Shown: positions 8,457 to 34,442, numbered from the stretch's first letter. The stretch: 34,442 nt of DNA from Bacteroidetes bacterium MED-G17 (GCA_002457675.1 NTKK01000004.1:155666-190107), one strand, 5' to 3'. Translations and numbers: made by a program. Notes: a model not told the origin generated them from the sequence alone.

Positions 8457-8973
8457 CAAAAATTGGACACTATTCCTCGATAGAGATGGTGTGATAAATG
8501 AGCGCCTAATTGGAGATTATGTGAAATCTGTGGAGGAGTTTACTTTTTGTAAAGGTGCTGTTGAGGCCATAGCAACTTTCACCAAAATTTTTGGCAAAAT
8601 AATTGTGATAACCAATCAACAGGGAATTGGAAAATCTATTATGAGTGAAATGGATTTATTAACGATTCATCAATATATGTCAGCTGAAATTAAAAAACAT
8701 GGCGGCTTTGTAAATGACATCTTTTATTGTCCTGACCTAGCATCAAAAAATCAAAATTGTAGAAAACCAAATCCAACCATGGCATACAAAGCCAAAGAAA
8801 AATACCCAAGCATTGATTTTAATAAATCCTTAATGATCGGTGATAGTGAAAGTGATATGATTTTTGCCCATAACGTTGGTTGTCATGCATTATTCATATC
8901 GCCAATCATTCATAAGAATTATCAAACATTTCCTAGTTTAATACATATAGCAAAAAAGCTGTTAAATGAGTAA
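8416..8973 (+). CDS. gmhB: D-glycero-D-manno-heptose-1,7-bisphosphate 7-phosphatase (GmhB-like)
   Basis: A 185-residue HAD-superfamily phosphatase. Motif I is FLDRDGVIN with Asp22 nucleophile and Asp24 acid/base; VITNQQG is motif II; CRKPNP carries Lys117; IGDSESDM (Asp143, Asp147) is motif IV. This is the histidinol-phosphatase/GmhB branch and would remove the C7 phosphate between the hddA and hddC steps. The loop that holds structural zinc in E. coli GmhB (Cys92, His94, Cys107, Cys109) is shorter here and keeps only Cys105 and Cys115, with Asp and Gln at the other two positions. I used ATG 8416, which lies inside the end of hddC; no later in-frame ATG precedes motif I. Confidence 0.86.
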   Translation: MKKPNQNFLNTQLNKNWTLFLDRDGVINERLIGDYVKSVEEFTFCKGAVEAIATFTKIFGKIIVITNQQGIGKSIMSEMDLLTIHQYMSAEIKKHGGFVNDIFYCPDLASKNQNCRKPNPTMAYKAKEKYPSIDFNKSLMIGDSESDMIFAHNVGCHALFISPIIHKNYQTFPSLIHIAKKLLNE

Positions 8974-17044: not shown

Positions 17045-17497
17045 ATGAATAAATTTATACCCTACGTTTTTTATTTAATTCTGCTGTGTATGTGCACCAA
17101 TCCTAACTCCAATGAAGCTTATATAAAGTTTATAAAGAAAGGGTATAATGCTGATAGGTATAAATTAGAGAATATTTTAGAAGGCATTTCAGAAAGTTTA
17201 GAGGACAATAACGAAAATTTCTACCAACCATTGGCTATTCAGTTAATGAATTCACGAAGAGAGTTGACCTACAGAAAAGTACCGAGCAACGATTCCTTGA
17301 TTTGGTCGTATGCGCTAGGACTCAATTTGGTATACCTAGACTACGTGCAGGGGCTGCAAGGCGCGTATAGCCAAATCAATATTCAATTACTGAAGAACCG
17401 GGAAAAATACTTTTTGTATAAACTGCAGGAGATACTGCCTAGCAAAAAGTCAAGATTTGGAAAAACAACTTTTCACTCCATTATTAACCAGCATTAA
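17045..17497 (+). CDS. Small exported protein of unknown function
   Basis: A 150-residue protein I do not recognise. It starts with a hydrophobic segment (FIPYVFYLILLCMC) that could be a signal peptide or a poor lipobox ending at Cys17 (LCMC lacks the usual small residue before the cysteine). The remainder is helix-rich and basic at the end. The gene sits 6 bases after the photolyase stop and ends in a 4-base tail-to-tail overlap with rsmG, so it is squeezed between two conserved genes, and its reading frame and start fit a real gene. No function is proposed. Confidence 0.6.
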   Translation: MNKFIPYVFYLILLCMCTNPNSNEAYIKFIKKGYNADRYKLENILEGISESLEDNNENFYQPLAIQLMNSRRELTYRKVPSNDSLIWSYALGLNLVYLDYVQGLQGAYSQINIQLLKNREKYFLYKLQEILPSKKSRFGKTTFHSIINQH

Positions 17498-18105
17498 AAT
17501 ACAACTTCAAGTAACTTTTTGGTTTCAAAAAAAGATTCCTTAAAAGACGCTTTTAGTTTGTAGCTTTTCACGCGTATTTCAGGATGTTTATTTGACAATG
17601 TATCAATTTCTCCCTGTAGATCCCCTCCTTTTAAAGCGTAAAGCTTGTATTTGATATTTGTTTTTGTCCATTTTACCAAAACATCTAAAGGCGCTACTGC
17701 CCTTGTAACAGCAAAATGGTATTCATTAGCTAAACTTTCTACCCTCCCATGACTTGCTGTGATATTCTCTAAATCGAGTTTTTGCTTGATGTCCTCTACG
17801 ACCTTTATTTTCTTTCCAATAGAATCAACCAAATGAAAATGAACATCTGGATACAAAATAGCCAATACCACTCCAGGGAAACCTCCTCCTGTGCCAATAT
17901 CTAAAACCTTATTATCCTTTTTAAAATCCGCAAAGTTTGCTATGGCAGCTGAATGCAAAAAATGACGTGTTTCTAAATGTGGTATATCCTTTCTAGAAAT
18001 GAGATTTATTTTCTCATTCCACGCTGAATACAAAGCACATGCAGATATAAATTTACTCTTTTGACTTTGAGTTAGATTAGGTAAATAACGGCCAATTATT
18101 TCCAT
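17494..18105 (-). CDS. rsmG: 16S rRNA (guanine527-N7)-methyltransferase RsmG
   Basis: A 203-residue SAM-dependent methyltransferase. Residues 67-80 (VLDIGTGGGFPGVV) form the SAM-binding loop in the exact RsmG form, followed by LVDSIGKKIKVV and TRAVAPLDVLVKW. The enzyme methylates N7 of G527 in 16S rRNA; loss gives low-level streptomycin resistance in many bacteria. The open frame extends upstream to 18183, but that would add 26 hydrophobic residues unlike any RsmG and would overlap the preceding gene by 88 bases; ATG at 18103-18105 gives the family-typical start MEIIGRYLP and a 10-base overlap with the glycosyltransferase. Confidence 0.93.
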   Translation of the reverse strand: MEIIGRYLPNLTQSQKSKFISACALYSAWNEKINLISRKDIPHLETRHFLHSAAIANFADFKKDNKVLDIGTGGGFPGVVLAILYPDVHFHLVDSIGKKIKVVEDIKQKLDLENITASHGRVESLANEYHFAVTRAVAPLDVLVKWTKTNIKYKLYALKGGDLQGEIDTLSNKHPEIRVKSYKLKASFKESFFETKKLLEVVF

Positions 18106-19226
18106 TTCAATTTTCTGTTGAACATGCTTAACGAAGCAAAATACCAAACATACAAAATCCACAAATATTCCAAAAACGGCCACAGATATATCAATGACTT
18201 ACTTTTAAAAAGGTCAAATTTATCTCTCTTCACCTGGTGCATGACGAACAAAACAAAAACAACTGGCATCCAAAATTTATCCATATGTTTAAGCATACCT
18301 AAAAACAAAACGCCCCAAAAAAAGGTGAAAATAATTTGCAGAAAACCCAATATGATCAAATTGTTCAAATGATAAGATTTACCCGCTTTCATATGCCGAA
18401 TTTTCTGAATTTTATACGTTTTCCATGTTTTTTTGGGTGGTGAATTTGTAAAAGTCTGTTTGTCTAATAAACAGCCAACATTGGCAAAATGAGCAACACT
18501 TTGAACAAAAAGATCATCATCTCCCATTGGAATATTTTTGTGTTTTTGGTAACCCTCAGCTTTTTCGAAAAGTGTCTTTGTAAATCCTAAATTTCTGCCC
18601 ACTCCCATATATGGCTTTCCAATTAGCGCAAAAGAAAAATATCTTGAAGCTGTACGAAAAGTTTCGTATTGAATAAATGTATTTAGCAAGCCTTTTCTCT
18701 TGTGGTAGTAACTATAGCCTAAGACTAGATCTTTACCATCTGTAAATTGCTCTGCATAGATATTCAAAAAGTTGACAGAATCGATACACACATCAGCGTC
18801 AATAAAAACCATGAACTCAGTCTTGGCTTTTAAAATACCCGTTTGTAACGCTTGCTTTTTTCCCGGACCAAATTTGTTTTGCAAAGCCACAACTCTTTCA
18901 TCATTGTATTCAGAAACAAATTCATAGCTGCCATCAGTAGAATGGTCATCAACTATGATTATTTTGAAATTTTCATGCGCCTGCTGCAACCAATTTGGTA
19001 AATTTTTTTGTAGGTTTTTAATTTCATTCTTTGCTGCGATAATTAATGAAATATCAGTACTTTCATATTCTTTAGCGCCTAATTTCTCTTTACATGCCCA
19101 ATTAAAAAGGAATACATAAAAAAATAGGACCGACACAGAGGAAATGAAAAATACCACCAACATTGAGAAAAATTGCGGTGAACTTAGTACATTTTTTGAA
19201 AAATGACATAAAATGGATTGATACAT
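18096..19226 (-). CDS. Membrane-bound family 2 glycosyltransferase
   Basis: A 376-residue GT-A fold transferase. An N-terminal membrane helix (about 20-43) is followed by SLIIAAKNEIKNL, IIIVDDHSTDGS and FIDADV (Asp143/Asp145, metal/nucleotide binding). GDDDLFV later corresponds to the acceptor-side acidic motif. The last 100 residues contain two to three membrane helices separated by basic loops. Transferred sugar and acceptor are unknown; a cell-envelope glycan or glycolipid is likely. An internal ATG at residue 22 is a possible alternative start. It overlaps rsmG by 10 bases and is probably co-transcribed with it. Confidence 0.85.
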   Translation of the reverse strand: MYQSILCHFSKNVLSSPQFFSMLVVFFISSVSVLFFYVFLFNWACKEKLGAKEYESTDISLIIAAKNEIKNLQKNLPNWLQQAHENFKIIIVDDHSTDGSYEFVSEYNDERVVALQNKFGPGKKQALQTGILKAKTEFMVFIDADVCIDSVNFLNIYAEQFTDGKDLVLGYSYYHKRKGLLNTFIQYETFRTASRYFSFALIGKPYMGVGRNLGFTKTLFEKAEGYQKHKNIPMGDDDLFVQSVAHFANVGCLLDKQTFTNSPPKKTWKTYKIQKIRHMKAGKSYHLNNLIILGFLQIIFTFFWGVLFLGMLKHMDKFWMPVVFVLFVMHQVKRDKFDLFKSKSLIYLWPFLEYLWILYVWYFASLSMFNRKLKWK

Positions 19227-19706: not shown

Positions 19707-21275
19707 ATGAATTACAAATCAATTTTACCGGTTTGTGTCTTCTTTTTAATAGTCTTATTAGTCTTCGGATCGTGTGATATGGGCTCAAATAAGGCAGTTA
19801 AGAAAAAAGAATCAATAGCGCAAATGAATGATAAATTAAATGTTTTATTTATTGTGGCCGATGATTTAAATTGTGACCTAACTGCGTATGGTAACGTAAA
19901 TACTCACACCCCCAATATTGATCAACTTTGCAAAGAGGGATTTTCATTTCTAAATGCACACAATCAATATCCACTTTGTGGACCATCAAGAGCATCTTTC
20001 ATGACTGGTATGTACACTGATCAAACTAAGATAGATAAAAATAATATGAATATACGGAATTCGATTCCAGATGTCATAACAATAGGTCAACGTTTTAGAC
20101 AACAAGGATATCACTCAGTGAGAATTGGAAAAATCTTTCATTATGATAATCCAAGTGCAATAGGAACATCAGGCAATGACGATATTTATTCATGGAGTCA
20201 AACTATAAACCCTTACGGCAGAGATAAAATTGAAGAATATAAAATTAATAGTCTTAGCGAGAGAAGATACGGAGGAACATTAAGCTGGTTAGCTGCAGAT
20301 GGGATTGATGAAGAACAAACTGACGGCATTGGAGCAACAATCGCCATTAATCAACTTGAACGTTTTTCTAATGATAGCATACCATTTTTTATGGCTATTG
20401 GTTTTTACAGGCCTCACACACCATTTGTAGCACCAAAAAAATATTTTGATCTTTATAATAGGGATGACATCAAGATTCCTGAATCTTCAGAAGATTATCT
20501 TAAGACTATACCTGAACCTGCAGCAAAATCTGTGAGATCAAAAAAGAATCAAATCAATTTGAAAAATGATCTTGCTAAAGAGATAAAACAAGCCTATTAC
20601 GCTTCTATTTCATTTGTTGATGCCCAACTTGGTAGAGTGATAGATAAGCTCAAAGAAACTAGATTGATTGAAAATACAATAATTATATTTATTTCTGACC
20701 ACGGATACCACTTGGGTGAACATGGGCACTGGCAAAAACAAACATTATTTGAAAATTCGACTAGAGTTCCACTAATTATTGCTACCCCAAATTTATCAAA
20801 TAAGGGATCGAAATCGGAGAGTCCTGTGGAGTTAGTCGATATATATCCTACACTAATGGATCTTACCGGCATAAAAATTCCTACGAACGTTGTTGGGAAG
20901 AGTTTAAAACCTATACTTGAAAATAAAGATTTTTCTACTCGTGGGAGTTCATTTACGAAATGGAGAAATGGTTATTCCATTAAAACAAAACGATATCGAA
21001 TAACAAAATGGGGGAAAAATGGGGAATTAGGTTACGAACTTTATGACCACAATTACGACAAGAGTGAACTTAATAATCTTGCTTCTCATAATGAATATAT
21101 TGAAGTAATGGACTCTTTAAAAATCATTCTTAATCAGCGAATTCGCGAATCAATGATAAAGCCAGACGGATTGGGTAGACAATTTAATAATGTAGAGCCG
21201 TTACATAAAGCAAAAAATATTACTTTAGGTGACCTCCATGATATTGAAGGGAAAATTTATATGCTAAAAAAATAA
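19707..21275 (+). CDS. Sulfatase lipoprotein, iduronate-2-sulfatase-like (S1_7-like)
   Basis: A 522-residue type I sulfatase. The lipobox FGSC (Cys23) predicts an outer-membrane or periplasmic lipoprotein. Metal-binding Asp52/Asp53 (IVADDLN) and the signature CGPSRASFMTG at Cys91-Arg95 are present; Cys91 must be oxidised to formylglycine. GFYRPHTPFVAPKKYFDLY and FISDHGYHLGEHGHW match the iduronate-2-sulfatase-like subfamily, whose bacterial members also act on algal glycans. It heads a run of eight plus-strand genes and is followed after 58 bases by another sulfatase. The substrate (a sulfated uronic or other sugar) is inferred only. Confidence 0.9.
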   Translation: MNYKSILPVCVFFLIVLLVFGSCDMGSNKAVKKKESIAQMNDKLNVLFIVADDLNCDLTAYGNVNTHTPNIDQLCKEGFSFLNAHNQYPLCGPSRASFMTGMYTDQTKIDKNNMNIRNSIPDVITIGQRFRQQGYHSVRIGKIFHYDNPSAIGTSGNDDIYSWSQTINPYGRDKIEEYKINSLSERRYGGTLSWLAADGIDEEQTDGIGATIAINQLERFSNDSIPFFMAIGFYRPHTPFVAPKKYFDLYNRDDIKIPESSEDYLKTIPEPAAKSVRSKKNQINLKNDLAKEIKQAYYASISFVDAQLGRVIDKLKETRLIENTIIIFISDHGYHLGEHGHWQKQTLFENSTRVPLIIATPNLSNKGSKSESPVELVDIYPTLMDLTGIKIPTNVVGKSLKPILENKDFSTRGSSFTKWRNGYSIKTKRYRITKWGKNGELGYELYDHNYDKSELNNLASHNEYIEVMDSLKIILNQRIRESMIKPDGLGRQFNNVEPLHKAKNITLGDLHDIEGKIYMLKK

Positions 21276-21333: not shown

Positions 21334-22800
21334 ATGGATTTTTATCGGTCTTTTCTCAAAATTCATTTAGTAATCGTAAATAGGTCATGTTTAATAGGTA
21401 TTTCTTTATTGCTTATTTCATGTGTTGACTTCACAAGTTCTGCTAACAAACAGAAAAATTTAAAATCCCCAAATTTCATTTTCATACTTGCTGATGATCA
21501 AGGATGGAACGGAACATCAGTCCAAATGTTGCGAAATGAACCCCTATCAAAAAGTGATTACTTCGAAACACCAAATCTAGAATTACTTGCTAAAAGAGGA
21601 ATTCGATTTTCAAATGCTTATTCAGGTGCGCCGGTTTGTGCTCCATCAAGATATAGTATACAATTTGGGAAAACTCCAGCTCGGCTTTCGCTTATCCGCG
21701 TGGGAATGAATACAAGCCATATTGACCATAAAGGATTTGAAAGTATTCCTAAAGCACTTAAAAAAATTAATGCGAATTATATCTCAGCACATTTTGGTAA
21801 ATGGGGAATGGGCAGTAGGCCTGAAGTACTAGGTTATGATATAAGTGATGGCCCTACCAAAAATAAGAATGGGCATTTTGTAAACGACAGGACCCAATGG
21901 AAACATAGATCTCTAGAAGATCCCAAAAAAATTTTTTCTATAACTGAAAAGGCTGCTAAATTCATGAAGAGATGTAACTCAGAAGAAAAACCTTTTTACC
22001 TTCAAATTTCACATTATGCAGTGCATGCTAATATCGAGTCTAAGTCAAGTAGCTTAGACCATCTACAAAATAAGCAGAAAGGTAAGCAACATCTAGATGC
22101 AGGGTATGCTGCGATGACTTTCGATTTAGACATTGGACTTGGACAAATTTTAGATCAAGTTAATAAATTAGGGATAGAGGATAATACTTACATTATTTAT
22201 ATGTCCGATAATGGTTCTGTTCCTAATATACCTGGAGCTAAAAAGTATAAAAAAAGTTATAATTATCCACTAAGCAGAGGTAAATGGGATGCCTATGAGG
22301 GAGGAGTTCGTGTTCCACTTATTATTGCAGGACCAAATATTAAAAAATCATCAATCTCTGATATCCCTGTTTCTAGTTCAGATCTTCTTCCTTCTATCAT
22401 AGAACTTGCCGGAAATAAAAAATATACATTACTAGAAATTGACGGTGGTAGTTTTGCCTCAATCCTGTTAGACAAAAAAAATAAAGAAATAACAAGACCA
22501 GTTGAAGGGATTTTCTTTCACGTTCCTTATAAAAACGGAATTGCAATAAATAGGCCACATTCTGCTATTAGAAAAGGTGATTATAAATTGATAAAATTTC
22601 GGGATGATAAAAGTATTTTACTTTTCAATTTATCAAATGATTTAGAGGAGAAAAATGACCTGTCAAGAAACGAATCAGAAAAGGCGAAAGAATTAGAAAA
22701 AATTTTAGATAACTACCTAAAAAAAGTACATGCACCAAAATGGCAAGATGGCATTACTTGGAAAAACAAACCCCTTAAGGAAATCAATTCAAAATACTAA
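21334..22800 (+). CDS. Sulfatase lipoprotein (type I, Cys-type)
   Basis: A 488-residue sulfatase. A hydrophobic segment ending LLISC (Cys30) gives a lipoprotein signal; the n-region is long (about 17 residues). ILADDQGW supplies Asp54/Asp55 for the metal, VCAPSRYS contains the modified Cys102 and Arg106, AHFGKWGMGSRPE is the conserved Lys region, and YMSDNGS with RGKWDAYEGGVRVPLI are the later active-site blocks. The subfamily is unclear to me, but the shape is that of bacterial exo-sulfatases acting on algal or host polysaccharides. It lies 11 bases before the FGE gene, tightly linked to its own activator. Confidence 0.89.
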   Translation: MDFYRSFLKIHLVIVNRSCLIGISLLLISCVDFTSSANKQKNLKSPNFIFILADDQGWNGTSVQMLRNEPLSKSDYFETPNLELLAKRGIRFSNAYSGAPVCAPSRYSIQFGKTPARLSLIRVGMNTSHIDHKGFESIPKALKKINANYISAHFGKWGMGSRPEVLGYDISDGPTKNKNGHFVNDRTQWKHRSLEDPKKIFSITEKAAKFMKRCNSEEKPFYLQISHYAVHANIESKSSSLDHLQNKQKGKQHLDAGYAAMTFDLDIGLGQILDQVNKLGIEDNTYIIYMSDNGSVPNIPGAKKYKKSYNYPLSRGKWDAYEGGVRVPLIIAGPNIKKSSISDIPVSSSDLLPSIIELAGNKKYTLLEIDGGSFASILLDKKNKEITRPVEGIFFHVPYKNGIAINRPHSAIRKGDYKLIKFRDDKSILLFNLSNDLEEKNDLSRNESEKAKELEKILDNYLKKVHAPKWQDGITWKNKPLKEINSKY

Positions 22801-22811
22801 ATATTAATTTT

Positions 22812-23942
22812 ATGCAACTTAATATAAAATTACTTGGATTTTTTATGTTTTGGATTTTTGGGTGCAATTCCTCGAATAGTAAAAAGCACCCCGATAAATG
22901 TTGTGAAGTTTTTTTTAATAAAACTCATTATACTTTTGACACCCTTCTGAAACATTATAAAGTTGATTCTTTACTTATTAAAATTGCTGACTCCATTGCG
23001 GGAATGGTTTATATTCCTTCGGGAAATTATTTAATGGGAGCTAGTAGTTTAGAAATGGCTCTAAAACGTGAGCTTCCCACCCATAAGGTTAAAGTAAATT
23101 CTTTTTACATGGATATTCATGAGGTAACAAATGCTCAATTTGCTGAATTTGTAGCTGAAACTGGATACAAAACAGTAGCAGAAAGGGAAATTGATTGGAA
23201 CACTTTCAAGAAACATTTTCCTAAAAATACTCCTAAACCTAATCCTGATTTATTGCAACCCGGGTCTATGGTTTTTTCATCACCTAAAAATATTTTTAAC
23301 ATTACTGATATATCTCAATGGTGGAAATGGACAATTGGTGCCGATTGGATGCACCCATTTGGTCCGGAAAGCAGCATTCTGAACAAAGAAGATGAACCAG
23401 TAGTACACATTTGTTACCATGACGCTGCTGCATATGCCAAATGGTGCGGTAAACGTTTACCAACTGAGGCTGAATGGGAATGGGCAGCTAGAGGCGGATT
23501 ACGAAATAAAGTTTATCCTTGGGGGAATGAATCTGTAGAGCAAGGGAAGCCAAAATGTAACTATTGGACAGGTTCCTTCCCTACACTAAATACCAAAGAA
23601 GATAGTTTTTCAGGGATAGCTCCTGTGATGCAATATGATGCTAATGGTTATGGATTATATGACATGTCTGGCAATGTGTGGGAAATTTGTTCAGATTGGT
23701 ACGATGAAAACTATTATTCATTTTCAAAGAGAAATAATATCATAAATAATCCTAAAGGCCCAGACAAATGGTACTACCCTCTAGAACCAAATGATCCTAA
23801 ACGGGTCATTCGTGGTGGTTCTTTTTTGTGTAACAATAGTTATTGTTCAAGCTATCGAGTCTCGGCCAGGATGTCTACCTCACAAAATACTGGGATGAGC
23901 CATATTGGATTTAGATGTGTGAAAGACGCATATATTAAGTAA
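22812..23942 (+). CDS. Formylglycine-generating enzyme (SUMF1/FGE family), predicted lipoprotein
   Basis: A 376-residue protein. The signal segment ends in IFGC (Cys19), so it is predicted to be lipidated. From about residue 65 the FGE-sulfatase fold is complete: GMVYIPSGNYLMGAS, DIHEVTNAQFAEFV, RLPTEAEWEWAARGG, YPWGNE, MSGNVWEICSDWY, and the active-site block RGGSFLCNNSYC with Cys340 and Cys345, spaced as Cys336/Cys341 of human FGE, ending in GFRCVK. These cysteines bind copper and use O2 to turn the sulfatase CxPxR cysteine into formylglycine. Keeping both separates it from the many SUMF1-domain proteins without this activity. Its location among four Cys-type sulfatases indicates a dedicated maturase. 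An exported FGE implies maturation outside the cytoplasm. Confidence 0.88.
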   Translation: MQLNIKLLGFFMFWIFGCNSSNSKKHPDKCCEVFFNKTHYTFDTLLKHYKVDSLLIKIADSIAGMVYIPSGNYLMGASSLEMALKRELPTHKVKVNSFYMDIHEVTNAQFAEFVAETGYKTVAEREIDWNTFKKHFPKNTPKPNPDLLQPGSMVFSSPKNIFNITDISQWWKWTIGADWMHPFGPESSILNKEDEPVVHICYHDAAAYAKWCGKRLPTEAEWEWAARGGLRNKVYPWGNESVEQGKPKCNYWTGSFPTLNTKEDSFSGIAPVMQYDANGYGLYDMSGNVWEICSDWYDENYYSFSKRNNIINNPKGPDKWYYPLEPNDPKRVIRGGSFLCNNSYCSSYRVSARMSTSQNTGMSHIGFRCVKDAYIK

Positions 23943-23993: not shown

Positions 23994-25907
23994 ATGTTGT
24001 CGGGACAATTTCTTAAATTTTGGATTAAATTTTTATTAATCTTCTTGTGTATTTCATCTTCGGCACAAGTCAAAACCACCAAATCAAGTCCTTTTAGGAG
24101 TAACATCTTAACCTATAGAAAACCTAACAGCTCAGTATCTTTTTCAGGTTTTTATCGTTTTTTAGGCTTTGTCCGTAATCAAGTAGAAACATTCCCTAAT
24201 AATAGCGGGAAAACCACCGTTATTAGTTCAGGAGATAATTATAGAGAACCTATGTTTCTTTTGAAGCTAAATGGAAGAACCAGAGAAAATGTAACTTTCG
24301 GTGCAGATTTTATGATAAACAGCCTATATAAGGGACCATCTGAAGATTACATTAGTCCTTTAACTCTTAATCTTGGATTAAACCTTACAACCACATTTTT
24401 AACAGAACATGGAATATTTAAACTTAAATCTGGCGGTATTTCATGGTATAGGCAAAGTCGGCTCACAGTTTGGGGTAATCGTTCGTTTAATAGGATTAGT
24501 TTGTTTGAGAGAAGACCACAAACACCCTTAAATCAATTTCCATTTAATCGTTATTCGAAATACTATAATAGTGGATTATTAGATCAAGGAATTCGTTACG
24601 GTAGTCGCGCATTTCAAGGGCTCTTTATTCAAGGAACAAAACTTCCATTAAATTTTTCCGTCAAAGGAGTGATAGGGAAAAGTAACTTTAACCGATCTTT
24701 TTTGGAGAGTAGTGATAATTTCACAGGTTGCTTTCAACTAAAAAATATACTAAATCAATCCACTAAAATATCCTATAATTACCTTTCGTCTTGGGCGGAC
24801 ACTGACTCGTTAAGTTATGATCGAAGAAACTATTTTATTCACTCACTTGATATCGATAAAAAAATAAATAAATTACAATTTCAAATGGAGCTTGGAATTG
24901 GGAATTATACAGACCCAGAAAAAAAACTCGGATTTGGTGAGGCTATAGTTTTAAATGTAAAGACTGCAAAGACATACAAAGTTCCATTAGATATTCAGTT
25001 ATATAGAATATCACCTCAATTCGTCAATGTCACTGGGAACTTTCTAAACACTACTGTCTTAGAAGTATTCCCAAATGTTGCTGGTGTAGGAACAACTGTT
25101 AGAACACCTTATCAAAGCCCAATGGTTGGACTAGGCTTTCCAGTAAATAATAGACAAGGAGCTTCAATAAATGCTGACTTGGAAGTAGGAAAATTTAGAT
25201 TTAATGCTGGTATTGGGGTGTTTGCTGAAATTGATACCTCTTATGCCTCTTTATCCTACATTCATAATGTCAACAGCCAAACACTATCTAGAATCTTTTT
25301 GTTCGGTCAGAATTGGGGGCCATATAATTCACTAAATTCAACATATAGAAGAGTATTTGAAAATGTAAATATCAGTGACACAAGTAAAACAGGACTTGCG
25401 AACTTCAAAAAGTTCTTTAACACAATTGAATTTGAAGCAAAATACAAGAATCAAGCTTTTGGAAAGAACTACTACATATTCTCACTTACACGTCTAAATA
25501 CTTGTCAAAAAAATCTTGTTTTAATCCCAAAATTTGGGGAAAGAACATTGATTTCTCAATTAAGCCAAGAGATTGATTTCAGTATTGGAATGAGTAAAAA
25601 AGCAGTTTTTATTCTAAGTTATGGAATACAAAAAGTATTAGGTAATTCCTCTACCGATATTGGAGATAACCCTGAGGCTTCTGTTCAAAGTAAGTTTTTT
25701 GAGAATTTAGGTCTGGAAAGTTTGTACAAGTACACCAATTACAGAAATCAAACTAATACACTGTTGGGATTTGGGATAGATTATAAAATTAATGATAATG
25801 TGTATTTGTTTTTACGCTCAACCAAATACCGCTATTTTGATCCAAATTTTATAGAAAATCATTTAAAAGGATTTGAAACAATGCTCGAACTAAAAATAAA
25901 TTTTTAA
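23994..25907 (+). CDS. Outer-membrane beta-barrel protein of unknown family (A)
   Basis: A 637-residue protein with a signal peptide (FLLIFLCISSSAQ, cleavage near residue 25). The mature part has porin-like alternation, many Tyr/Asn/Phe-rich strands (SVSFSGFYRFLGF, VTFGADFMINS, ISYNYLSSW) and ends in FETMLELKINF, a terminal strand with C-terminal Phe, as recognised by the BAM machinery. I cannot place it in a named porin family; it lacks a TonB box or plug domain. It lies 51 bases after the FGE gene and 3 bases before a second barrel gene, so it probably works in the same glycan pathway. A near-consensus box TATCTTTA (23979-23986) precedes the ATG, so an internal promoter is possible. Confidence 0.75.
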   Translation: MLSGQFLKFWIKFLLIFLCISSSAQVKTTKSSPFRSNILTYRKPNSSVSFSGFYRFLGFVRNQVETFPNNSGKTTVISSGDNYREPMFLLKLNGRTRENVTFGADFMINSLYKGPSEDYISPLTLNLGLNLTTTFLTEHGIFKLKSGGISWYRQSRLTVWGNRSFNRISLFERRPQTPLNQFPFNRYSKYYNSGLLDQGIRYGSRAFQGLFIQGTKLPLNFSVKGVIGKSNFNRSFLESSDNFTGCFQLKNILNQSTKISYNYLSSWADTDSLSYDRRNYFIHSLDIDKKINKLQFQMELGIGNYTDPEKKLGFGEAIVLNVKTAKTYKVPLDIQLYRISPQFVNVTGNFLNTTVLEVFPNVAGVGTTVRTPYQSPMVGLGFPVNNRQGASINADLEVGKFRFNAGIGVFAEIDTSYASLSYIHNVNSQTLSRIFLFGQNWGPYNSLNSTYRRVFENVNISDTSKTGLANFKKFFNTIEFEAKYKNQAFGKNYYIFSLTRLNTCQKNLVLIPKFGERTLISQLSQEIDFSIGMSKKAVFILSYGIQKVLGNSSTDIGDNPEASVQSKFFENLGLESLYKYTNYRNQTNTLLGFGIDYKINDNVYLFLRSTKYRYFDPNFIENHLKGFETMLELKINF

Positions 25908-25910
25908 CCA

Positions 25911-27668
25911 ATGAAAAGAAACTTAAGATTACTATTTATTGTTTTTGTAGCATTGGGAATTGTTAATAGTAGCATTGCACAAACTTATGAAAAGATATGG
26001 TTCGATGGATTTGCTAGATCATATTTTGCAAGAGATGCAATTGATAAAAATGTTAAAGATGATACGCTTTCTCCAAAAAATGCATCCAATGGCTACAACC
26101 TTTTGGACTTAAATACCCATGTAAATCCAATTGATGATATAGAGATATTTGCACAAATACGTATCAAAAATAGTTTTGGAGGGTTTTTTGGTTCAGGAAC
26201 TGAAATAGATAGTCGGCAGTTAAGAGTAAATGGAACTATTAACAATAAAGTACGCTTTAGTGTTGGAGATCTTTTTTTAAAGCAATCTAGATTTACACTT
26301 TTTAATTATGATGAAGAACTTTCTGAATTTGAAAATGATATGTTCAAACCATATCGAGACATTATTCATTACGAAAACTTCTATACTGAAAATAGATGGC
26401 GTCTTCAAGGAATTCAAACTAACTTTTCCTTCGGTTTTGACCGCTATATCAAAAATTTAGCTTTTGACTTTTTTGTCACTCGACCCCGTGGATCAAGGCA
26501 AATTAGCATTGATAATTATTCAAGTGATTTATTATTATCTGGGGGGTCTATGGTGGCTGAGCTCAATAATCATTTTACCTTAAAAAATGATTACATCAAC
26601 TTATTTGAAGTTCCATCTAGTGGTAATCAAAATGTTTCAGTTAGAAATCCAGTATATCAAATGACTCTCTCTCATTACTCGGAAAATAATGAACATTACA
26701 TTGAACAAAAGCTTGAAGCTGGTTTTTCTAAAAGACATTGGCTCCACTCAGAGCTTGAAAATGGTAATGTAGACTCAATATCAAATAAAACCCATGGGCT
26801 TTTTCTTGAATTAGAAAATAGTTACTTTAAAAAAGATTCGACCTTTGATTTTTCTATAGGCTATAGATATGTTGATCCAGACTTTAGAAGTGCTGGAGCT
26901 CAAACCAGGCGTTTGGATTATGGTGCAGGAAATATAAATTCTAACTACCCTCTTTACACAAATATGCAGATGGTAAGGCCAACATCAATTTTTGATCTTA
27001 TTGCTGATGATAGACTCTATAATCAAGACTTGTCCAGTAATTTAATGACTTTCAATCCTATATACTCCAATGTCTTTCCTTTTGGTGATGCAACACCGAA
27101 TAGAAATGGAATTTATTTTATTGGAAGGTACGCCCATAAAAGTAAAATTATTTTAGGTAAACTTAATACTGGTTTTTTCAGTGAATTGATTGGGCAAGGC
27201 ACCCCGGATAAAAGGAGGTTTACCCTAATTAGAGCTTCTTTAAAGCTAAATATTCATCATTTTTTAAAATTAAATAAGGAACTTAGCTTTTCTTTAGCAT
27301 CTGAAAATGAATTCACTAAAAGAAGTGGAAATTCTGTTTCATCTATAGATTTGAAAAGCAATCAAATTAGACTTTCAATAAATGCAGAATTTGCAAAAAG
27401 ATTTTTTATTCAAGCAAACTATAGACAGTTTGATGTTAAAGGAAATGAATTCCTCACAGAGAGAAATAATTTTGGTGAAATAACCTATTTTTCATTATCT
27501 GACTATAATCAAAAGGATAATATACTCTCTATCGGAATACTTAATAAAATAAGGAAAAATATTTATGCAAATATCCAATATAACTGGTGGGGAATGGAAT
27601 TTACTGGCCAACCTTTTTCTGATTACAAATACAACAGACTTTTATTTATTTTATCATTAAAATTATGA
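25911..27668 (+). CDS. Outer-membrane beta-barrel protein of unknown family (B)
   Basis: A 585-residue protein with a signal peptide (LLFIVFVALGIVNSSIAQ, cleavage near residue 24). The mature sequence starts WFDGFARSYFARDA and continues as amphipathic strands, ending LLFILSLKL. The barrel call rests on strand pattern, aromatic girdle residues and the terminal strand. It may be distantly related to barrel A: both have a short 'G-F-x-R' N-terminal strand and a phrase of the form 'QSRxT' (RQSRLTVWG, KQSRFTLFN) at similar relative depth. Its stop overlaps the next start (ATGA), a sign of translational coupling. It could be an oligosaccharide channel or surface binding barrel; neither is proved. 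Confidence 0.74.
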   Translation: MKRNLRLLFIVFVALGIVNSSIAQTYEKIWFDGFARSYFARDAIDKNVKDDTLSPKNASNGYNLLDLNTHVNPIDDIEIFAQIRIKNSFGGFFGSGTEIDSRQLRVNGTINNKVRFSVGDLFLKQSRFTLFNYDEELSEFENDMFKPYRDIIHYENFYTENRWRLQGIQTNFSFGFDRYIKNLAFDFFVTRPRGSRQISIDNYSSDLLLSGGSMVAELNNHFTLKNDYINLFEVPSSGNQNVSVRNPVYQMTLSHYSENNEHYIEQKLEAGFSKRHWLHSELENGNVDSISNKTHGLFLELENSYFKKDSTFDFSIGYRYVDPDFRSAGAQTRRLDYGAGNINSNYPLYTNMQMVRPTSIFDLIADDRLYNQDLSSNLMTFNPIYSNVFPFGDATPNRNGIYFIGRYAHKSKIILGKLNTGFFSELIGQGTPDKRRFTLIRASLKLNIHHFLKLNKELSFSLASENEFTKRSGNSVSSIDLKSNQIRLSINAEFAKRFFIQANYRQFDVKGNEFLTERNNFGEITYFSLSDYNQKDNILSIGILNKIRKNIYANIQYNWWGMEFTGQPFSDYKYNRLLFILSLKL

Positions 27669-28717
27669 ATATGAAACTATATAATTTTTTTTTAATCGGT
27701 TTAGTATTTTTCTTTTTCACTTGTTCGGAAAATGAGTTTGAGGGGATGCCCATTGAAAATCTGTATGGAGAATTTAAAATTCTTCAACCGCTTAAAATTA
27801 ATAATGGAAATCCCAATTTTTCAAAAAATGAAATTGTAAGATTTCATTGTGAATTTAGCATACCAGTTGAATATAAAATTACTATTGAGGGGATGAGTAC
27901 AAAAGCAAAAAGAGAAATTAACGGTTTTTCAAATCTTCTTGACTCTAACTTAATTACATGGGATGGAAGTCCGTTAAAATTACCTTTTTTTATAGATGAG
28001 TTCTGTGCGATCGAATTAACTTTCAAGGATCAAATTGATACCATTAGAGATACACTCAAAATCCTTTCAGCAAAAATGTACGAAGACGGTATTTGGTATG
28101 AAGATTTTGAAGATGGTTTACCTGAAGGTGCGCTAGTAGCATATAATAAAGATGGTGGTGAATTGACCTTTGCTACAGCAAATGATGTCCCATTATTAGG
28201 GAATAGCTATTTTAAAATGGGAGGAAAAGTAAATTGGGACTGGAATATTGGTAAGATTGATTTTGAATTGGACTTTAAAAATGTTAATGAATCAGCTGAT
28301 AATTTTTTCTTAAATATTGGTATCCTATCTGATTTAGAAGACTTTCATAGTGGACAATTTATAAATATTTTGATTTCGGAAGAAACTCAAATACCATTCA
28401 ATGGTATTTTAACTAATGATGCTTCAGACATATTCGAATCAGACATGGAGGTATATAAAATGAAAGTCCCTGTAGATTGGAATGGATGGGCAATTAAATC
28501 ATTTAGATATTCAGATTTCGAAGCAGTTTCACCGAATAATCCGGCTATTGATTTTAATATGAATCCTAAAGATATTAGAGCGATCCGAATTTCATGTCAA
28601 GCGTGCCCGTCATCGCCTGGCAACCCAATATGTCCTGAAAATTTTGGTAAGATTGTTCGTACAGATATTGATCACATTATGTTCACTAAAAATACTGATA
28701 TATTTAAGTCGAAATGA
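27665..28717 (+). CDS. Lipoprotein of unknown function with C-terminal beta-sandwich-like region
   Basis: A 350-residue protein with a lipobox ending FFFTC (Cys20). The first 120 residues or so resemble an Ig-like adaptor (VRFHCEFSIPVEYKITIEG). Residues about 135-345, from WYEDFEDGLPEGA to IDHIMF, look like a jelly-roll carbohydrate-binding or galactose-binding-type domain, including the closing 'DIDHIMFTK' strand seen in such folds; this is inference from pattern. It contains CQACPSSPGNPIC, a cysteine-rich loop that may form disulfides. It overlaps both neighbours by 4 bases (ATGA), so it is made together with the barrel and the next lipoprotein and may be its surface partner. Confidence 0.7.
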   Translation: MNMKLYNFFLIGLVFFFFTCSENEFEGMPIENLYGEFKILQPLKINNGNPNFSKNEIVRFHCEFSIPVEYKITIEGMSTKAKREINGFSNLLDSNLITWDGSPLKLPFFIDEFCAIELTFKDQIDTIRDTLKILSAKMYEDGIWYEDFEDGLPEGALVAYNKDGGELTFATANDVPLLGNSYFKMGGKVNWDWNIGKIDFELDFKNVNESADNFFLNIGILSDLEDFHSGQFINILISEETQIPFNGILTNDASDIFESDMEVYKMKVPVDWNGWAIKSFRYSDFEAVSPNNPAIDFNMNPKDIRAIRISCQACPSSPGNPICPENFGKIVRTDIDHIMFTKNTDIFKSK

Positions 28718-29889
28718 AATTGACTTTCCCAATAGCTCTATACTTCTTATCCTGTTGTTTAACTCTGTCTTGTTCGATAAATCAAGTTTCAATTTATGAA
28801 CCATATGAGCCTGAGACAAATTTTGAAAAATTTCCGTACAAAGTGCTATTTACTAGCTCTGAAGAAGATGCATTTTGGGGGACTAAAAATAATGAGTGCA
28901 AAACAGTTTTATTCGATACTTCTAATAATTTTATTGGTAATAATCATCTTCACATTAAGTGGGATCAATCCAATTGCAACTATATTGGATTAGGGCTAAA
29001 ATGGGGAAATTATAAACCTAAAAATCTTTTGCCCATTATAAAATCTTCAGCTTTAGAATTACGTATTCGAGTTGATTCTGGAGTGTATTCAAACATACCC
29101 ATGTTTTTTATTCTTGTAGATTATAATGATAAACAATGCCGAACAAAAATAAATTACCTAGATCTTGAGGGAGGAAAGATAGATAAGACATGGAGGAGAA
29201 TTCGTATTCCGTTTCAAGCATTTAACTATTTAAGTAAAGGAGTTAACATACGTAATATTAAAGAGCTTCGTCTTGAATTTCAGAGAAAAGGCGATATTCA
29301 CATAGACAATATTATCATTGTTGAACATGAACATAACTACGCTAAATTAGTAGATGATTTCACTAAGGTTTTCGATAAACATCCAATTAATTTGGGAGTA
29401 GGGAAAGAATATTGGTGGGGAATTAATCCTAAATATTCATCCAGCTTTAATTTTGGTGCATCTTTTGAAAATGAAAGTGTAGTCGTAAAGCTTGGTAAAT
29501 CTAATGGATCAACTTGGAATAATTTTGGATTTTCCGCATACAAATGGATGCATACAGATATTTCATTAATTTTTTCAACATCTGCTCTCAATTTCAAGAT
29601 CAAAGCATCAGAAATTCCAAAACTTAGAGTTTCTTTTATATCTTATCATGGACAGAGAAGAAGATTACAAAAAGAATTAAATGAAAGTAATTTTATAACA
29701 CGAAATTTAAATAATCATGAAGCCTACATTCCGCTCAAATCACTTGTTGGCCATGACGAATTTAGTTGGGATGATCTCAAGGAATTAAGATTTACAATAT
29801 TAAACGATGTTCCTTTTGAAATAGGTGACTTTAAAATCATCGAATTTCGTGGAAACCCAAAAAAACCAACTGAATGGAAAGGAATTTAA
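28714..29889 (+). CDS. Lipoprotein with two tandem CBM-like domains
   Basis: A 391-residue protein with a lipobox LTLSC (Cys20). Domain 1 (about 40-207) runs from the DAFWGT region to IKELRLEFQRKGDIHIDNIIIVE; domain 2 (about 215-383) runs from KEYWWGINPKYS to LKELRFTILNDVPFEIGDFKIIEF. The matching order (WG near the start, a central LELRIRVDSG / LNFKIKASE strand, LKELR/IKELR and a D-I-D/G-D-F closing strand) indicates an internal duplication of a CBM11-like jelly roll, which typically binds glycans. No catalytic motif is seen. It overlaps the previous gene by 4 bases and the hydrolase by 16, so it is likely a substrate-binding partner for the hydrolase. Confidence 0.72.
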   Translation: MKLTFPIALYFLSCCLTLSCSINQVSIYEPYEPETNFEKFPYKVLFTSSEEDAFWGTKNNECKTVLFDTSNNFIGNNHLHIKWDQSNCNYIGLGLKWGNYKPKNLLPIIKSSALELRIRVDSGVYSNIPMFFILVDYNDKQCRTKINYLDLEGGKIDKTWRRIRIPFQAFNYLSKGVNIRNIKELRLEFQRKGDIHIDNIIIVEHEHNYAKLVDDFTKVFDKHPINLGVGKEYWWGINPKYSSSFNFGASFENESVVVKLGKSNGSTWNNFGFSAYKWMHTDISLIFSTSALNFKIKASEIPKLRVSFISYHGQRRRLQKELNESNFITRNLNNHEAYIPLKSLVGHDEFSWDDLKELRFTILNDVPFEIGDFKIIEFRGNPKKPTEWKGI

Positions 29890-31148
29890 ATTTATTTTAT
29901 CTTATTTTTTTAACCATATTAAAACTTAATTTATTTGCTCAAGTAAGTAAGGTTGAAGTAAACTCTACTATTTATGGAGATTTTGAGTTACAACGAAACG
30001 GAAAACCATACTATATTAAAGGGGCAGGAGCTAAAGATCATTTTAACCTGCTATCTAAATCTGGTGCTAACTCTATTCGATTGTGGAGTACCAATAACCA
30101 GCACTTGCTAGATTCTGCCCATCAATATGGTTTTACAGTAACACTTGGTTTATACGTAAGACCTGAGAGAAGTGGGATGGATTATAACGATGAATACGCT
30201 GTAAAAGGGCAAATCGAACAACTTAAAAAAGAAGTACTGAAATACAAAGATCATCCCGCATTATTAATATGGGGTATCGGAAATGAGGTAGATCTTAAAT
30301 ATTCTAATTTTAAGGTTTGGGAAACTATCGAAGCTATTGCAAATTTTATAAAAAAAATAGACCAGAATCATCCAACAATGACTGTAATAGCTGGAATTGA
30401 TCCATCAAAAATATACCTCATAAAGAAATATTGTCCTAGTATAGATATATTAGGAATAAATGTTTATGGCTCAATTGAAGGTGCGGGCACTAACATTAGA
30501 AAGTTTAATTGGGATAAACCTTATATTGTGACTGAGTGGGGAGTTAACGGACCGTTTGAAGCGAAGAAAACAGCTTGGAAAGCGAAAATAGAACCACCTA
30601 ACGGTTTAAAGGCGGAACAAAGACTCAGAAGGTATAAACAACTCATCGAAAAAGATAGCGAACGCTGTTTGGGGAGCTATTGTTTCTTATGGGGACAAAA
30701 ACAAGAATCTACAGCTACTTGGCACGGCATGTTTCTAAGAGATGGTAGACCAACGGAAGCAGTTGACGTAATGCAATATTGCTGGACTGGAAAATGGCCA
30801 AATACTCGTGCACCTTCCATTAAAAATATATCACTTGAAAACGTAAATTGGAGAAAAGACCACGTACTTGCTTCTAATTCGCAAGTCAGCTTAAAAATTC
30901 AATACCTAAGGAATAATAACAAAGAGATAATTTCTGAATTCAAGTTATTTCCAGAGTCTTATAGTAACCAAATTGGCGGTGATTTTCAAGCCTCACCAGA
31001 AGCAATGGCGTTTGAAGTAATCCGTAAAGAAAAAGATGAGCTTATTTTTATTACCCCAAAAAGAAGGGGAGCCTATCGTATATTTGCTTTTGTTAAAAAT
31101 GAAATGGGGCAAAGTTCTGTTGCTAATATTCCATTTTTTGTTGATTAA
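29874..31148 (+). CDS. Clan GH-A glycoside hydrolase (GH2 TIM-barrel/GH5-like)
   Basis: A 424-residue enzyme with a signal peptide (LFYLIFLTILKLNLFAQ). A TIM barrel (about 40-310) shows YIKGAGAKDHF, SIRLWST, ALLIWGIGNEVD with acid/base Glu138 following Asn, ILGINVYGS, and IVTEWGVNGP with nucleophile Glu221; these are the beta-4 and beta-7 glutamates of clan GH-A, so a retaining mechanism is expected. Residues 315-424 form a beta-sandwich-like tail. GH2-type N-terminal domains are missing, so it is a minimal barrel form. I cannot name the GH family or substrate; context with sulfatases suggests a sulfated or desulfated polysaccharide. The ATG at 29874 lies inside the preceding gene (16-base overlap). 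Confidence 0.83.
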   Translation: MERNLNLFYLIFLTILKLNLFAQVSKVEVNSTIYGDFELQRNGKPYYIKGAGAKDHFNLLSKSGANSIRLWSTNNQHLLDSAHQYGFTVTLGLYVRPERSGMDYNDEYAVKGQIEQLKKEVLKYKDHPALLIWGIGNEVDLKYSNFKVWETIEAIANFIKKIDQNHPTMTVIAGIDPSKIYLIKKYCPSIDILGINVYGSIEGAGTNIRKFNWDKPYIVTEWGVNGPFEAKKTAWKAKIEPPNGLKAEQRLRRYKQLIEKDSERCLGSYCFLWGQKQESTATWHGMFLRDGRPTEAVDVMQYCWTGKWPNTRAPSIKNISLENVNWRKDHVLASNSQVSLKIQYLRNNNKEIISEFKLFPESYSNQIGGDFQASPEAMAFEVIRKEKDELIFITPKRRGAYRIFAFVKNEMGQSSVANIPFFVD

Positions 31149-31159
31149 AATTTACAAGG

Positions 31160-32740
31160 CTAATTTTTATACCTCCGAATAAAAACCTCGAAGCCAGGTT
31201 GAAAAAGTAAAACATCAAAATCTTCAGTTGGCTTGATTAATTCAGAGGGTTTGTAAATTCTCCAAGAAGTTTCATTTTTATTTCTCCATCCGATAGAAGT
31301 ATGCAAATTCATAGGCTCAATTACATAGCCTGAAGGCTTCATAATTACCTCTGGAGTGTCTATTTTAGGAATAGCCATAGTTGGTGTGAACATGGTGCTT
31401 AGCATGGTTGACTCACTCATATTGCCAAAATCAGATTCTCTCATCCACAGAAACAGTTTACTTCGTAAGTCTTTAAAAACCTGTTCGTATTCTGGATAAG
31501 AAATAATATTATTAAGTTCATAATAATCGTTTGTGACATCATATAATTCAAAACGATCTTTTTGCTTAGTATACCAATCCGAAAAATAAGAACTGTTTTC
31601 GTTCATAGCTTGTATCGAATCTAATACCTGCATTGTTTTCATCTGTTTACGATATTCAACTAAATTATAGATTGGGGAGGTTGTATCTTCATTATATATG
31701 AGTTTGTAATTTCCACCTCGAATACACCTTCGCTTGTCTATATTTTCATCAAATCTATCGGTTGCAGCGTATATATAATTCCGTTGGTCTTTTTTGTAAA
31801 ACGATATCCCCTCAAACGGAATATCTCTTTCAATATTTGCCGCATCTAAAATTGTTGGTGCAAAATCAATAAAGCTAATCAATTGATTGTTTTCTAGTTT
31901 ATCAGTATTTTTAATCCATTTAGCTACCATTGGACAACGAACTCCTGTTTCGTATATTGATCGTTTATATCTAGGGAATGGACCACCATGATCACTAAAA
32001 AAAAATATAATAGTATTATCATAAAGGCCGTCCTCTTTCAGCTGGTCAATGATGACTCCTATCTTTGCGTCTAATATTTCTATATTTTTATAGTTTGCTA
32101 AAAAATCACTTTTGATTGCATCGCTCTCAGGAAAAATTTTTGGAACCTTAATACTATTAAATTTATTAGTATCAAAAACATGTTTATTTTTCCAAATACT
32201 AGATTCATGTGTAACATAAAAGTTGAAAATAGAAAAAAAAGCCTGTCCTTTTTTTCTATTTCGCCAATGTGCAGCATTACTGCTTTCATCCCAAGCTAAT
32301 GGTGAGCACATCATGTTATAATCTTCTTTAGCATTATTAGTGCAGTAATATCCTTTAGCTCTTAGGTCCTCTGTAAAAAAACGAACTGGTTTAAAAGGTT
32401 TTGGACTGTAATAAGGGAGCTTATTATAAGGATTAATTTGATTTTCACTCACATTCTCTTTATATGACCGCATGTGTTGAGTACCAATTGAGGTTGGATA
32501 CATACCCGTTATTAGACTACTCCTACTTGGTGCACAAACTGGAGACGGAGTATAACAATTCTTATAAATAATCCCATCTTTAGCCAATTGATCAATATGA
32601 GGAGTATTTGCATTAGAGTCGCCGTACATTGAAAAAAATAATGATTGATCTTCACATACAAGCCATAGAAAATTAGGCGATTCTTGACAATAAGAAGAAC
32701 GAACTAGAAAAATAAATAGCCATAAAACATTACTCCTCAA
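31160..32740 (-). CDS. Exported sulfatase (type I, S1_8/sulfamidase-like)
   Basis: A 526-residue sulfatase with a short N-terminal signal (NVLWLFIFLVRSSYC). Metal site Glu30-Asp31 (VCEDQS), signature VCAPSRSSLITG with Cys69 and Arg73, the SIGTQHMRS phrase, FFFSDHGG and YETGVRCPMVAKW are characteristic of a subfamily related to heparan N-sulfatase (S1_8 by my recollection, not checked). It is the only complete sulfatase here without a clear lipobox, and the only gene of the block on the minus strand; it ends 11 bases from the convergent hydrolase. A 126-base spacer separates it from the divergent sulfatase. Substrate is unknown. Confidence 0.88.
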   Translation of the reverse strand: MRSNVLWLFIFLVRSSYCQESPNFLWLVCEDQSLFFSMYGDSNANTPHIDQLAKDGIIYKNCYTPSPVCAPSRSSLITGMYPTSIGTQHMRSYKENVSENQINPYNKLPYYSPKPFKPVRFFTEDLRAKGYYCTNNAKEDYNMMCSPLAWDESSNAAHWRNRKKGQAFFSIFNFYVTHESSIWKNKHVFDTNKFNSIKVPKIFPESDAIKSDFLANYKNIEILDAKIGVIIDQLKEDGLYDNTIIFFFSDHGGPFPRYKRSIYETGVRCPMVAKWIKNTDKLENNQLISFIDFAPTILDAANIERDIPFEGISFYKKDQRNYIYAATDRFDENIDKRRCIRGGNYKLIYNEDTTSPIYNLVEYRKQMKTMQVLDSIQAMNENSSYFSDWYTKQKDRFELYDVTNDYYELNNIISYPEYEQVFKDLRSKLFLWMRESDFGNMSESTMLSTMFTPTMAIPKIDTPEVIMKPSGYVIEPMNLHTSIGWRNKNETSWRIYKPSELIKPTEDFDVLLFQPGFEVFIRRYKN

Positions 32741-32866: not shown

Positions 32867-34442
32867 ATGAAACTAAACAACATTATTTATGCTTGTTGGC
32901 TCTTTTTATTCTCAATTGGTGCATGTAATATTGGAGAAGAAAAAAGTCAATCAAATTCAGAAAAGGATAATGAACCACTGAATGTAATTTATATAATGGC
33001 TGATGACCATGCCTATCAAGCCATAAGTGCTTATGGCTCTCAAGTAAGTAAGCTAGCACCAACTCCAAATATTGACCGTATCGCAAAAAAAGGAGCTAGA
33101 ATGGATGCCGTTTATTGCACCAACTCTATCTGTGGTCCAAGCCGAGCTTCTATTCTAACTGGTAAATTTTCTCATGTGAATGGTTTTTATAAAAATGTCA
33201 ATGGAGGAGATTTCAATGGAGAACAACTTACCTTTCCTAAAATTTTTCAAAAAAATGGTTACCAAACTGCGGTAATTGGAAAATGGCACTTAGGAACTAC
33301 TCCAACCGGATTTGATTATTCTAAGGTTTTAATTAACGGGGGTGGGCAAGGAACTTACTATAACCCTCAGTTTTGTATCAATGGAAAAGATACAGTTATT
33401 GAGACTAATCGCCATTGTACTAAAGTTATAGAAGATGAATGCTTAAATTGGCTTTCAAATAGAGACAAATCCAAGCCTTTTATGCTTCTTTACCAATTCA
33501 AAGCTCCTCACAGAGATTGGAGACCTGACTCCATTTACCATGATTACTTATCTGATTTTGATTTTCCAATTCCCGCTACATTTAATGATGATTATAAGGG
33601 GAGAAATGCAGCTAGCGAGAACATGATGGAAATAAGTAATCATCTCAATAGAAGAGATATGAAACAAATACCGCCTCCGGGATTATCGAGAAGAGACTCA
33701 ATAAGGTGGTTATCGTATGGTGATCAGGGACAGTATTGGTCTCCAAGCGATACATTAAAAGGTGATGCACTAGCATATTGGAAATATCAGACATATATCA
33801 AAGATTACTTAAGGTGCGTTGCTGGAGTCGATCGAGCAGTTGGAAGTGTTTTAGATTATCTAGACGAAAATGGATTAAGTAATAATACCATTGTAGTTTA
33901 TACCTCAGATCAGGGATTCTATTTGGGTGAACACGGATGGTTTGATAAAAGATGGATGTATGAAGAATCCTTTAAAATGCCATTTCTCATTATGAGTCCT
34001 AAATTAATTAAACCAGGAACTGTGTCTGACGCTATTGTTATGAATATTGATTTTGCACCGACACTTTTGGATATGGCTGGATTAAATATACCCTCTGAAA
34101 TGCAGGGGGAAAGCTTTAAAAACGTATTTAACAATAAATTAGAATATATACATGAGGCTGCTTATTATCATTATTATGAGTATCCTATCTGGCATAAAGT
34201 TCAGCCACATTATGGCATAAGAACTAGTCGATACAAGCTTATTCATTTTTATTATTCAATGGACGAATGGGAATTATACGATTTAAAAAATGACCCTCAG
34301 GAACTATTTAATATATATGCAAATGCACCTGAAGCATTGGTTAGAGATTTGAAAAAGAAATTAACTAACCTAAAAGAAGAGTATAAAGACGATTACTCAA
34401 TCAAAGAAATGAAAAGTATAACTGATACTATAATTCGTAGGG
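32867..34442 (+). CDS. Sulfatase lipoprotein, GlcNAc-6-sulfatase-like (S1_11-like), 3'-partial
   Basis: An uninterrupted frame of 525 codons runs off the window end with no stop. It begins with a lipoprotein signal ending IGAC (Cys20). The sulfatase domain shows MADDHAY (Asp46/Asp47 metal ligands), SICGPSRASILTG with Cys89 and Arg93, VIGKWHLG, QFKAPHRDW, and TSDQGFYLGEHGWFDKRWMYEES, a phrase typical of the N-acetylglucosamine-6-sulfatase-like subfamily. The visible part already includes the C-terminal subdomain (ELYDLKNDPQE), so only a short tail is missing. It is divergent from the minus-strand sulfatase. Actual substrate is unknown; S1_11-like enzymes act on several sulfated glycans. Confidence 0.9.
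   Translation, partial: MKLNNIIYACWLFLFSIGACNIGEEKSQSNSEKDNEPLNVIYIMADDHAYQAISAYGSQVSKLAPTPNIDRIAKKGARMDAVYCTNSICGPSRASILTGKFSHVNGFYKNVNGGDFNGEQLTFPKIFQKNGYQTAVIGKWHLGTTPTGFDYSKVLINGGGQGTYYNPQFCINGKDTVIETNRHCTKVIEDECLNWLSNRDKSKPFMLLYQFKAPHRDWRPDSIYHDYLSDFDFPIPATFNDDYKGRNAASENMMEISNHLNRRDMKQIPPPGLSRRDSIRWLSYGDQGQYWSPSDTLKGDALAYWKYQTYIKDYLRCVAGVDRAVGSVLDYLDENGLSNNTIVVYTSDQGFYLGEHGWFDKRWMYEESFKMPFLIMSPKLIKPGTVSDAIVMNIDFAPTLLDMAGLNIPSEMQGESFKNVFNNKLEYIHEAAYYHYYEYPIWHKVQPHYGIRTSRYKLIHFYYSMDEWELYDLKNDPQELFNIYANAPEALVRDLKKKLTNLKEEYKDDYSIKEMKSITDTIIRR

Follow-up and report, generated by a model that had tools for sequence, protein, structure and literature searches.

A 34,442-nucleotide stretch of DNA from Bacteroidetes bacterium MED-G17 (GCA_002457675.1 NTKK01000004.1:155666-190107; the whole stretch is called the window below) carries a cassette of five co-directional open reading frames (ORFs) on the + strand, which most probably encode an outer-membrane glycan-uptake system that works without SusC and SusD. 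The first gene, barrel A (23994..25907, 637 amino acids), encodes a plug-less outer-membrane β-barrel homologous to CHU_1276 of Cytophaga hutchinsonii, and the second, barrel B (25911..27668, 585 amino acids), an outer-membrane β-barrel homologous to CHU_1277. They are followed by lipoprotein 1 (27665..28717, 350 amino acids), a CHU_1278 homologue with a lipobox at Cys20 that resembles surface glycan-binding proteins (SGBPs), by lipoprotein 2 (28714..29889, 391 amino acids), an SGBP-B-like protein with tandem carbohydrate-binding module (CBM)-like domains and the putative counterpart of CHU_1279, and by a hydrolase of the endo-β-1,3-glucanase type from glycoside hydrolase (GH) family GH158 (29874..31148, 424 amino acids). 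Barrels A and B are separated by 3 nucleotides and the next three junctions overlap by 4, 4 and 16 nucleotides, so that the tight spacing noted in the first-pass annotation, which was made from the sequence alone, is borne out by the ORF coordinates. Tight gene coupling by itself is ordinary in bacterial operons. It is also a trait of the family, as the median intergenic gaps across the compared loci are 2, 4 and -1 nucleotides, but it is the conserved gene order elsewhere, not the coupling alone, that exceeds chance.

A single-sequence scan of genome contigs with barrel B found no relatives, and an alignment-based scan of GTDB contigs detected 225; 80 of these were retained. The comparison covers 106 loci after removal of duplicates; their selection by barrel B and the early ends of some contigs make all counts of linked genes lower bounds. 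In 104 of the 106 loci the gene immediately before barrel B is barrel A, on the same strand, and in 101 of 103 the gene immediately after barrel B is lipoprotein 1, which answers positively the question of conserved synteny raised in the first-pass annotation. GH158 is found in the neighbourhood of 75 loci, 57 of which also have GH3 or GH16. Other recurrent neighbours are GH3 (49 loci), GH16 (30), NrtR-type regulators (24), propeller-LuxR regulators (16) and sugar transporters. Among 57 genomes related to that of the window, 13 carry barrel B. A profile search detects it in 32 of the 108 genomes in the order, and in samples of 295 genomes from the class and 296 from the phylum it turns up in 36 and 5, respectively; each of these counts includes the window's own genome. 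Within the family that includes a Sporocytophaga genome, 17 of 19 genomes have it, with up to eight matches each.

The enzymes next to the barrels differ between copies. GH9 accompanies the cassette in five loci (L087, L107, L157, L182, L183), GH18 in two (L156, L158), one of which also has glucosamine-6-phosphate-isomerase-type genes, and GH5 with GH27 in two others (L117, L119). In a barrel B tree built by a quick, short search without bootstrap, with group labels assigned by hand, the GH9, GH18 and GH5/GH27 groups and a sulfatase-bearing clade each occupy one side of a branch; L104, L190 and L191 were placed in the cellulose group though no GH9 is seen alongside them in the stretch read. 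The sulfatase-bearing clade includes the window and consists of eight loci from marine Flavobacteriales-type metagenome-assembled genomes, which form one supported clade (hereafter the window clade). Since related copies adjoin GH9, GH18 or GH5/GH27 enzymes, the cassette looks like a modular glycan-uptake platform. A GH13 α-amylase-type gene precedes the copies in L132, L193 and L194 (confirmed by Pfam only in L132), perhaps an α-glucan version.

Homology of the barrels to the C. hutchinsonii proteins is evident for barrel A against CHU_1276 (phmmer 5e-32; profile 1.4e-89) and for barrel B against CHU_1277 (phmmer 2e-69; profile 1.4e-127). The AlphaFold model of barrel A is a large outer-membrane β-barrel (predicted local distance difference test, pLDDT, 84; predicted template modelling score, pTM, 0.82) that begins at the first strand. 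Its structural matches to large barrels start only at about model residue 44, and TonB-dependent receptors are matched over their barrel portion and not over the plug; the comparison with the SusC-type chain of BT1762-1763 gives Z 14.0 over 395 aligned residues at a root-mean-square deviation of 4.5. No Pfam TonB plug domain was found in 67 barrel A members, nor any TonB or plug Pfam in either window barrel. Barrel B is modelled as an outer-membrane β-barrel with porin/AlgE-type fold matches (pLDDT 65, pTM 0.61). Both large proteins thus model as barrels, as had been read from the sequence, and neither as a soluble, non-barrel fold. Profile comparison by hhalign (98.2%, E 4.6e-14, against no more than 0.3% for reversed and shuffled controls) indicates that the two are distant paralogues. 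The parts of the cassette co-evolve, with correlated distances of 0.94 between barrels A and B and 0.84 between barrel B and GH158. Neither barrels A and B nor lipoprotein 1 has a specific Pfam or NCBIfam family, and PDB sequence searches with their profiles gave nothing usable. A specific fold family is not claimed for the barrels: the Foldseek/VIA matches are generic large barrels (ushers, the barrels of TonB receptors, AlgE, OccK), among which the lack of a closer family does not indicate a new fold. In L016 and L018 an apparent frameshift, genuine or an assembly error, splits barrel A into at least two ORFs.

Lipoprotein 1 matches CHU_1278 at 8e-8 by single sequence and at 5e-34 by profile. 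Its lipobox Cys20 is kept in 105 of 105 members, with an acidic residue at most six positions after the Cys in 98. The commonest mature start, C-[K/R]-[K/R]-[D/E], resembles the Bacteroidota lipoprotein export signal C-X-K-(D/E)2 (PMC5080379), and the start of the window protein, CSENEFE, is without the lysine of this signal. In lipoprotein 2, Pfam recognizes CBM30 at amino acids 58-188 above the cut-off (30.6 bits), and the N- and C-terminal halves are homologous (hhalign 92%, E 5e-7), both in agreement with the tandem-CBM reading first given to this gene. Its family profile matches that of CHU_1279 (94.8%, E 5.5e-8, 203 columns; reversed control 0.2%), and the window clade alone gives a non-significant 7%. 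CHU_1279 itself has 375 amino acids, with Y253, F256 and F343, and is 88.8% identical to the protein of its sister genome (89% in PMC12016534). By these profiles lipoprotein 2 appears to be a remote relative of CHU_1279 in the same gene slot, and both lipoproteins look like surface binding proteins. In four loci (L156, L158, L185, L130; the chitin-type copies and one other) lipoprotein 1 is tandem-duplicated and lipoprotein 2 is absent.

The hydrolase is a GH2-like TIM barrel by Pfam/NCBIfam and is assigned to GH158 because of its PDB sequence matches to 9oro (2.8e-87) and BuGH158 (6pal; 4e-59), with full-length similarity to characterized GH158. The catalytic residues N137, E138 and E221 are present in 71 of 71 relatives, and the corresponding residues of BuGH158, N136, E137 and E220, have been shown to be essential (PMC7157763). 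The protein has a signal peptide, no lipobox and no tail for the type IX secretion system (T9SS). The gene usually comes first in the cassettes of relatives and last in those of the window clade. At 11 positions that are near-invariant in the other 65 enzymes, those of the window clade deviate; P224V and W228F, two of these changes, lie near the nucleophile E221.

The nearest known system is the chu_1276-chu_1280 locus, described in C. hutchinsonii, C. aurantiaca and Sporocytophaga myxococcoides as an 'atypical' polysaccharide utilization locus (PUL) for cellulose without SusC/D (PMC12016534) and needed for cellulose use in C. hutchinsonii (PMC12016534, PMC5553014). The order of parts is the same: two barrels, a CHU_1278-type protein, a tandem-CBM SGBP-B-like protein and then an endoglucanase. 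Homology is detectable for the barrels and lipoprotein 1, and for lipoprotein 2 only at the level of family profiles. The hydrolases have the same class of role but belong to different families, GH158 in the window and a GH9 cellulase in C. hutchinsonii, and the window locus is flanked by sulfatases and a formylglycine-generating enzyme (FGE) in a marine Flavobacteriales-type genome. Compared with non-marine members, barrel A of the window has approximately 21-30% sequence identity. With the Bacteroides uniformis 1,3GUL (SusC, SusD, SGBP-B, GH16, GH158, GH3; PMC7157763), many relatives share GH158, GH3 and GH16, and both systems have a tandem-domain surface glycan-binding protein. However, the cassette has two plug-less barrels in place of the SusC TonB-dependent transporter and SusD, and the window clade adds sulfatases. 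With a canonical SusCDEF PUL it shares the logic of an outer-membrane channel, surface lipoproteins, a hydrolase and linked regulation, but it lacks a SusC or SusD homologue, and SusD occurs in only 1 of the 106 loci. No SusD Pfam was found in the cassette, and the only SusD of the genome, part of its single SusC/SusD pair (G000 C11:168006-170334), lies on another contig. Membership of a canonical SusC/D PUL was rejected on the absence of TonB/plug Pfam in the barrels and of SusD in the cassette.

The best explanation of the five genes, to which we assign a probability of roughly 0.8, is an outer-membrane system of the chu_1276-1280 type that takes up glycans independently of SusC/D. This is supported by the homology to CHU_1276, CHU_1277 and CHU_1278 in the same order, the remote homology to CHU_1279, the synteny, the GH158 plus GH3/GH16 enzyme set shared with the characterized B. 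uniformis β-1,3-glucan locus, the conserved catalytic residues, the correlated distances, the regulators, the sugar transporters and the sulfatases of the window clade. The earlier description of the set as SusCDEF-GH logic built from unrelated parts holds up well, since the order of genes is conserved, the barrels lack plugs, the lipoproteins are of surface type, the enzyme is a glucanase and the parts are homologous to a locus needed for cellulose use. The role of the proposed envelope glycan-handling complex can be specified further as glycan uptake, on a substrate of the GH158 type (β-1,3-glucan-like) that is probably sulfated; strictly speaking the system is not novel, as chu_1276-1280 is an already described prototype (PMC12016534). 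In the proposed mechanism, the proteins would act as one complex: the two surface lipoproteins capture the glycan chain and feed it into a passage through the outer membrane that is made up of the two paralogous plug-less barrels. Sulfatases, matured by the neighbouring FGE, would strip sulfate groups; GH158 would cleave the imported chain and GH3 glucosidases would complete its breakdown. GH158 most likely acts in the periplasm, because it has a signal peptide without a lipid anchor and because CHU_1280 has been reported as periplasmic, although CHU_1280 was also detected outside the cell (PMC6247017).

Several points weigh against this explanation. The homology between lipoprotein 2 and CHU_1279 is weak and invisible by single sequence, and the model of barrel B has only middling confidence. 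For every GH158-linked copy, the uptake role is a prediction. The genome has a SusC/D pair, so the cassette is not its only route, and the 11 deviating GH158 positions suggest that the substrate of the marine subclade may differ from plain β-1,3-glucan.

Transport in the opposite direction has to be considered as well. In exopolysaccharide export or biosynthesis, the barrels would export a polymer, the lipoproteins guide it and GH158 trim or clear it, as in AlgE/AlgK/AlgL or BcsC/BcsZ. Export operons do include hydrolases, AlgE is among the fold matches and a glycosyltransferase family 2 (GT2) gene lies nearby on the opposite strand. However, AlgE-like matches are common to many unrelated barrels, the cassette has no synthase, polymerase or co-polymerase, it is accompanied in the various loci by GH3, GH16, sugar transporters and NrtR-type and propeller-LuxR regulators, and cellulose use depends on the C. 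hutchinsonii homologues (PMC12016534, PMC5553014), so that export is very improbable. Alternatively, the barrels might anchor the lipoproteins and surface enzymes on an insoluble glycan, with uptake through other transporters such as the SusC/D of the genome. Loss of CHU_1276 or CHU_1277 indeed lowers cell-associated β-glucosidase activity (PMC5553014), and such display would suit the surface-type appearance of lipoproteins 1 and 2. On the other hand, CHU_1277 has been linked to cello-oligosaccharide assimilation (PMC5553014), overall adhesion is not compromised by deletion of CHU_1279 (PMC12016534), and GH158 has neither a lipobox nor a T9SS tail. Moreover, the two SusC/D homologues of C. hutchinsonii have no part in cellulose use (PMC12016534, PMC5553014), and SusC/D deletion in this species is reported to leave no cellulose phenotype (cited in PMC12016534). 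Adhesion or enzyme display is thus an improbable account of the cassette.

For the window clade, the uptake reading extends to a sulfated substrate. Upstream of barrel A on the + strand lie two Cys-type sulfatases, at 19707..21275 (CGPSR; Pfam Sulfatase 1e-49) and 21334..22800 (CAPSR; kept beside the cassette in the clade), and an FGE-type protein at 22812..23942 (Pfam FGE-sulfatase 3.3e-78), a putative accessory for sulfatase maturation in this clade with the double-Cys active-site motif RGGSFLCNNSYC. Downstream are two further Cys-type sulfatases, at 31160..32740 on the - strand (CAPSR; kept in L060, L066 and L067) and at 32867..34441 on the + strand (CGPSR; Pfam Sulfatase 4.6e-52). The two CAPSR proteins are identified by their motif and by NCBIfam sulfatase-type matches below the curated cut-off. 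The four CxPSR sulfatases and the paired-Cys FGE make up an FGE-dependent set. The window ends at the contig end (34441), so the last sulfatase is incomplete and the locus may extend further. Sulfatases are present in all eight window-clade loci and in none of the other 98, and FGE in five of the eight; this suggests a sulfated β-1,3-glucan-like marine polysaccharide as substrate. Downstream of the cassette, L061, L066 and L067 have a GH3-like protein (judged from the sequence start only), which together with the sulfatases and the GH158 deviations favours a modified β-1,3-glucan-like substrate. It could also be that the window holds an ordinary β-1,3-glucan (laminarin) uptake locus built on barrels of this type and that the sulfatases belong to a neighbouring pathway unrelated to it. 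This opposes only the sulfated-substrate part of the explanation, and GH158 with GH3/GH16, present in most loci, is a known β-1,3-glucan set (PMC7157763). The restriction of sulfatases to the window clade and the GH158 changes found there argue against it, and we consider it unlikely, though less so than the alternatives above.

The chu_1276-1280 type, previously tied to cellulose in Cytophagaceae, is thereby extended to a wide range of Bacteroidota, in which GH158 is the most frequent partner enzyme and the locus almost never contains SusC/D. This suggests that polysaccharide import in many Bacteroidota does without the usual SusC/SusD transporter. As PUL detection, especially in metagenomes, relies on susC/susD pairs, such loci are overlooked as uptake systems. 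No papers on GH158- or GH18-linked copies were found in the open-access literature (subscription papers lay outside the scope), and the cassette type is sparsely described and far more widespread than the literature found reports. If the explanation is true, the recognized gap over how Bacteroidota import cellulose fragments without SusC/D turns into a broader one, for which many loci not linked to cellulose offer test cases, and part of the marine uptake of laminarin-type carbon has been miscounted. The clade with sulfatases directs attention to a marine glycan that awaits identification. More tentatively, and with the balance somewhat against it, the paralogous barrel pair and two surface lipoproteins might represent a second, TonB-plug-free class of Bacteroidota importer, re-tooled for β-1,3-glucan, cellulose, chitin and mannan-type glycans and, in the marine clade, for an undescribed sulfated β-1,3-glucan.

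Elsewhere in the window, rsmG/GidB and the GT2 gene adjoin the cassette (17494-19226). A GT2 homologue is also found near the cassette in L015, L101, L112, L116 and the distant L087, which reflects a shared chromosomal address or chance. Genes for a GHMP kinase, a nucleotidyltransferase and a HAD phosphatase follow one another at 6739-8973, an arrangement like that for heptose-type sugar-nucleotide synthesis.

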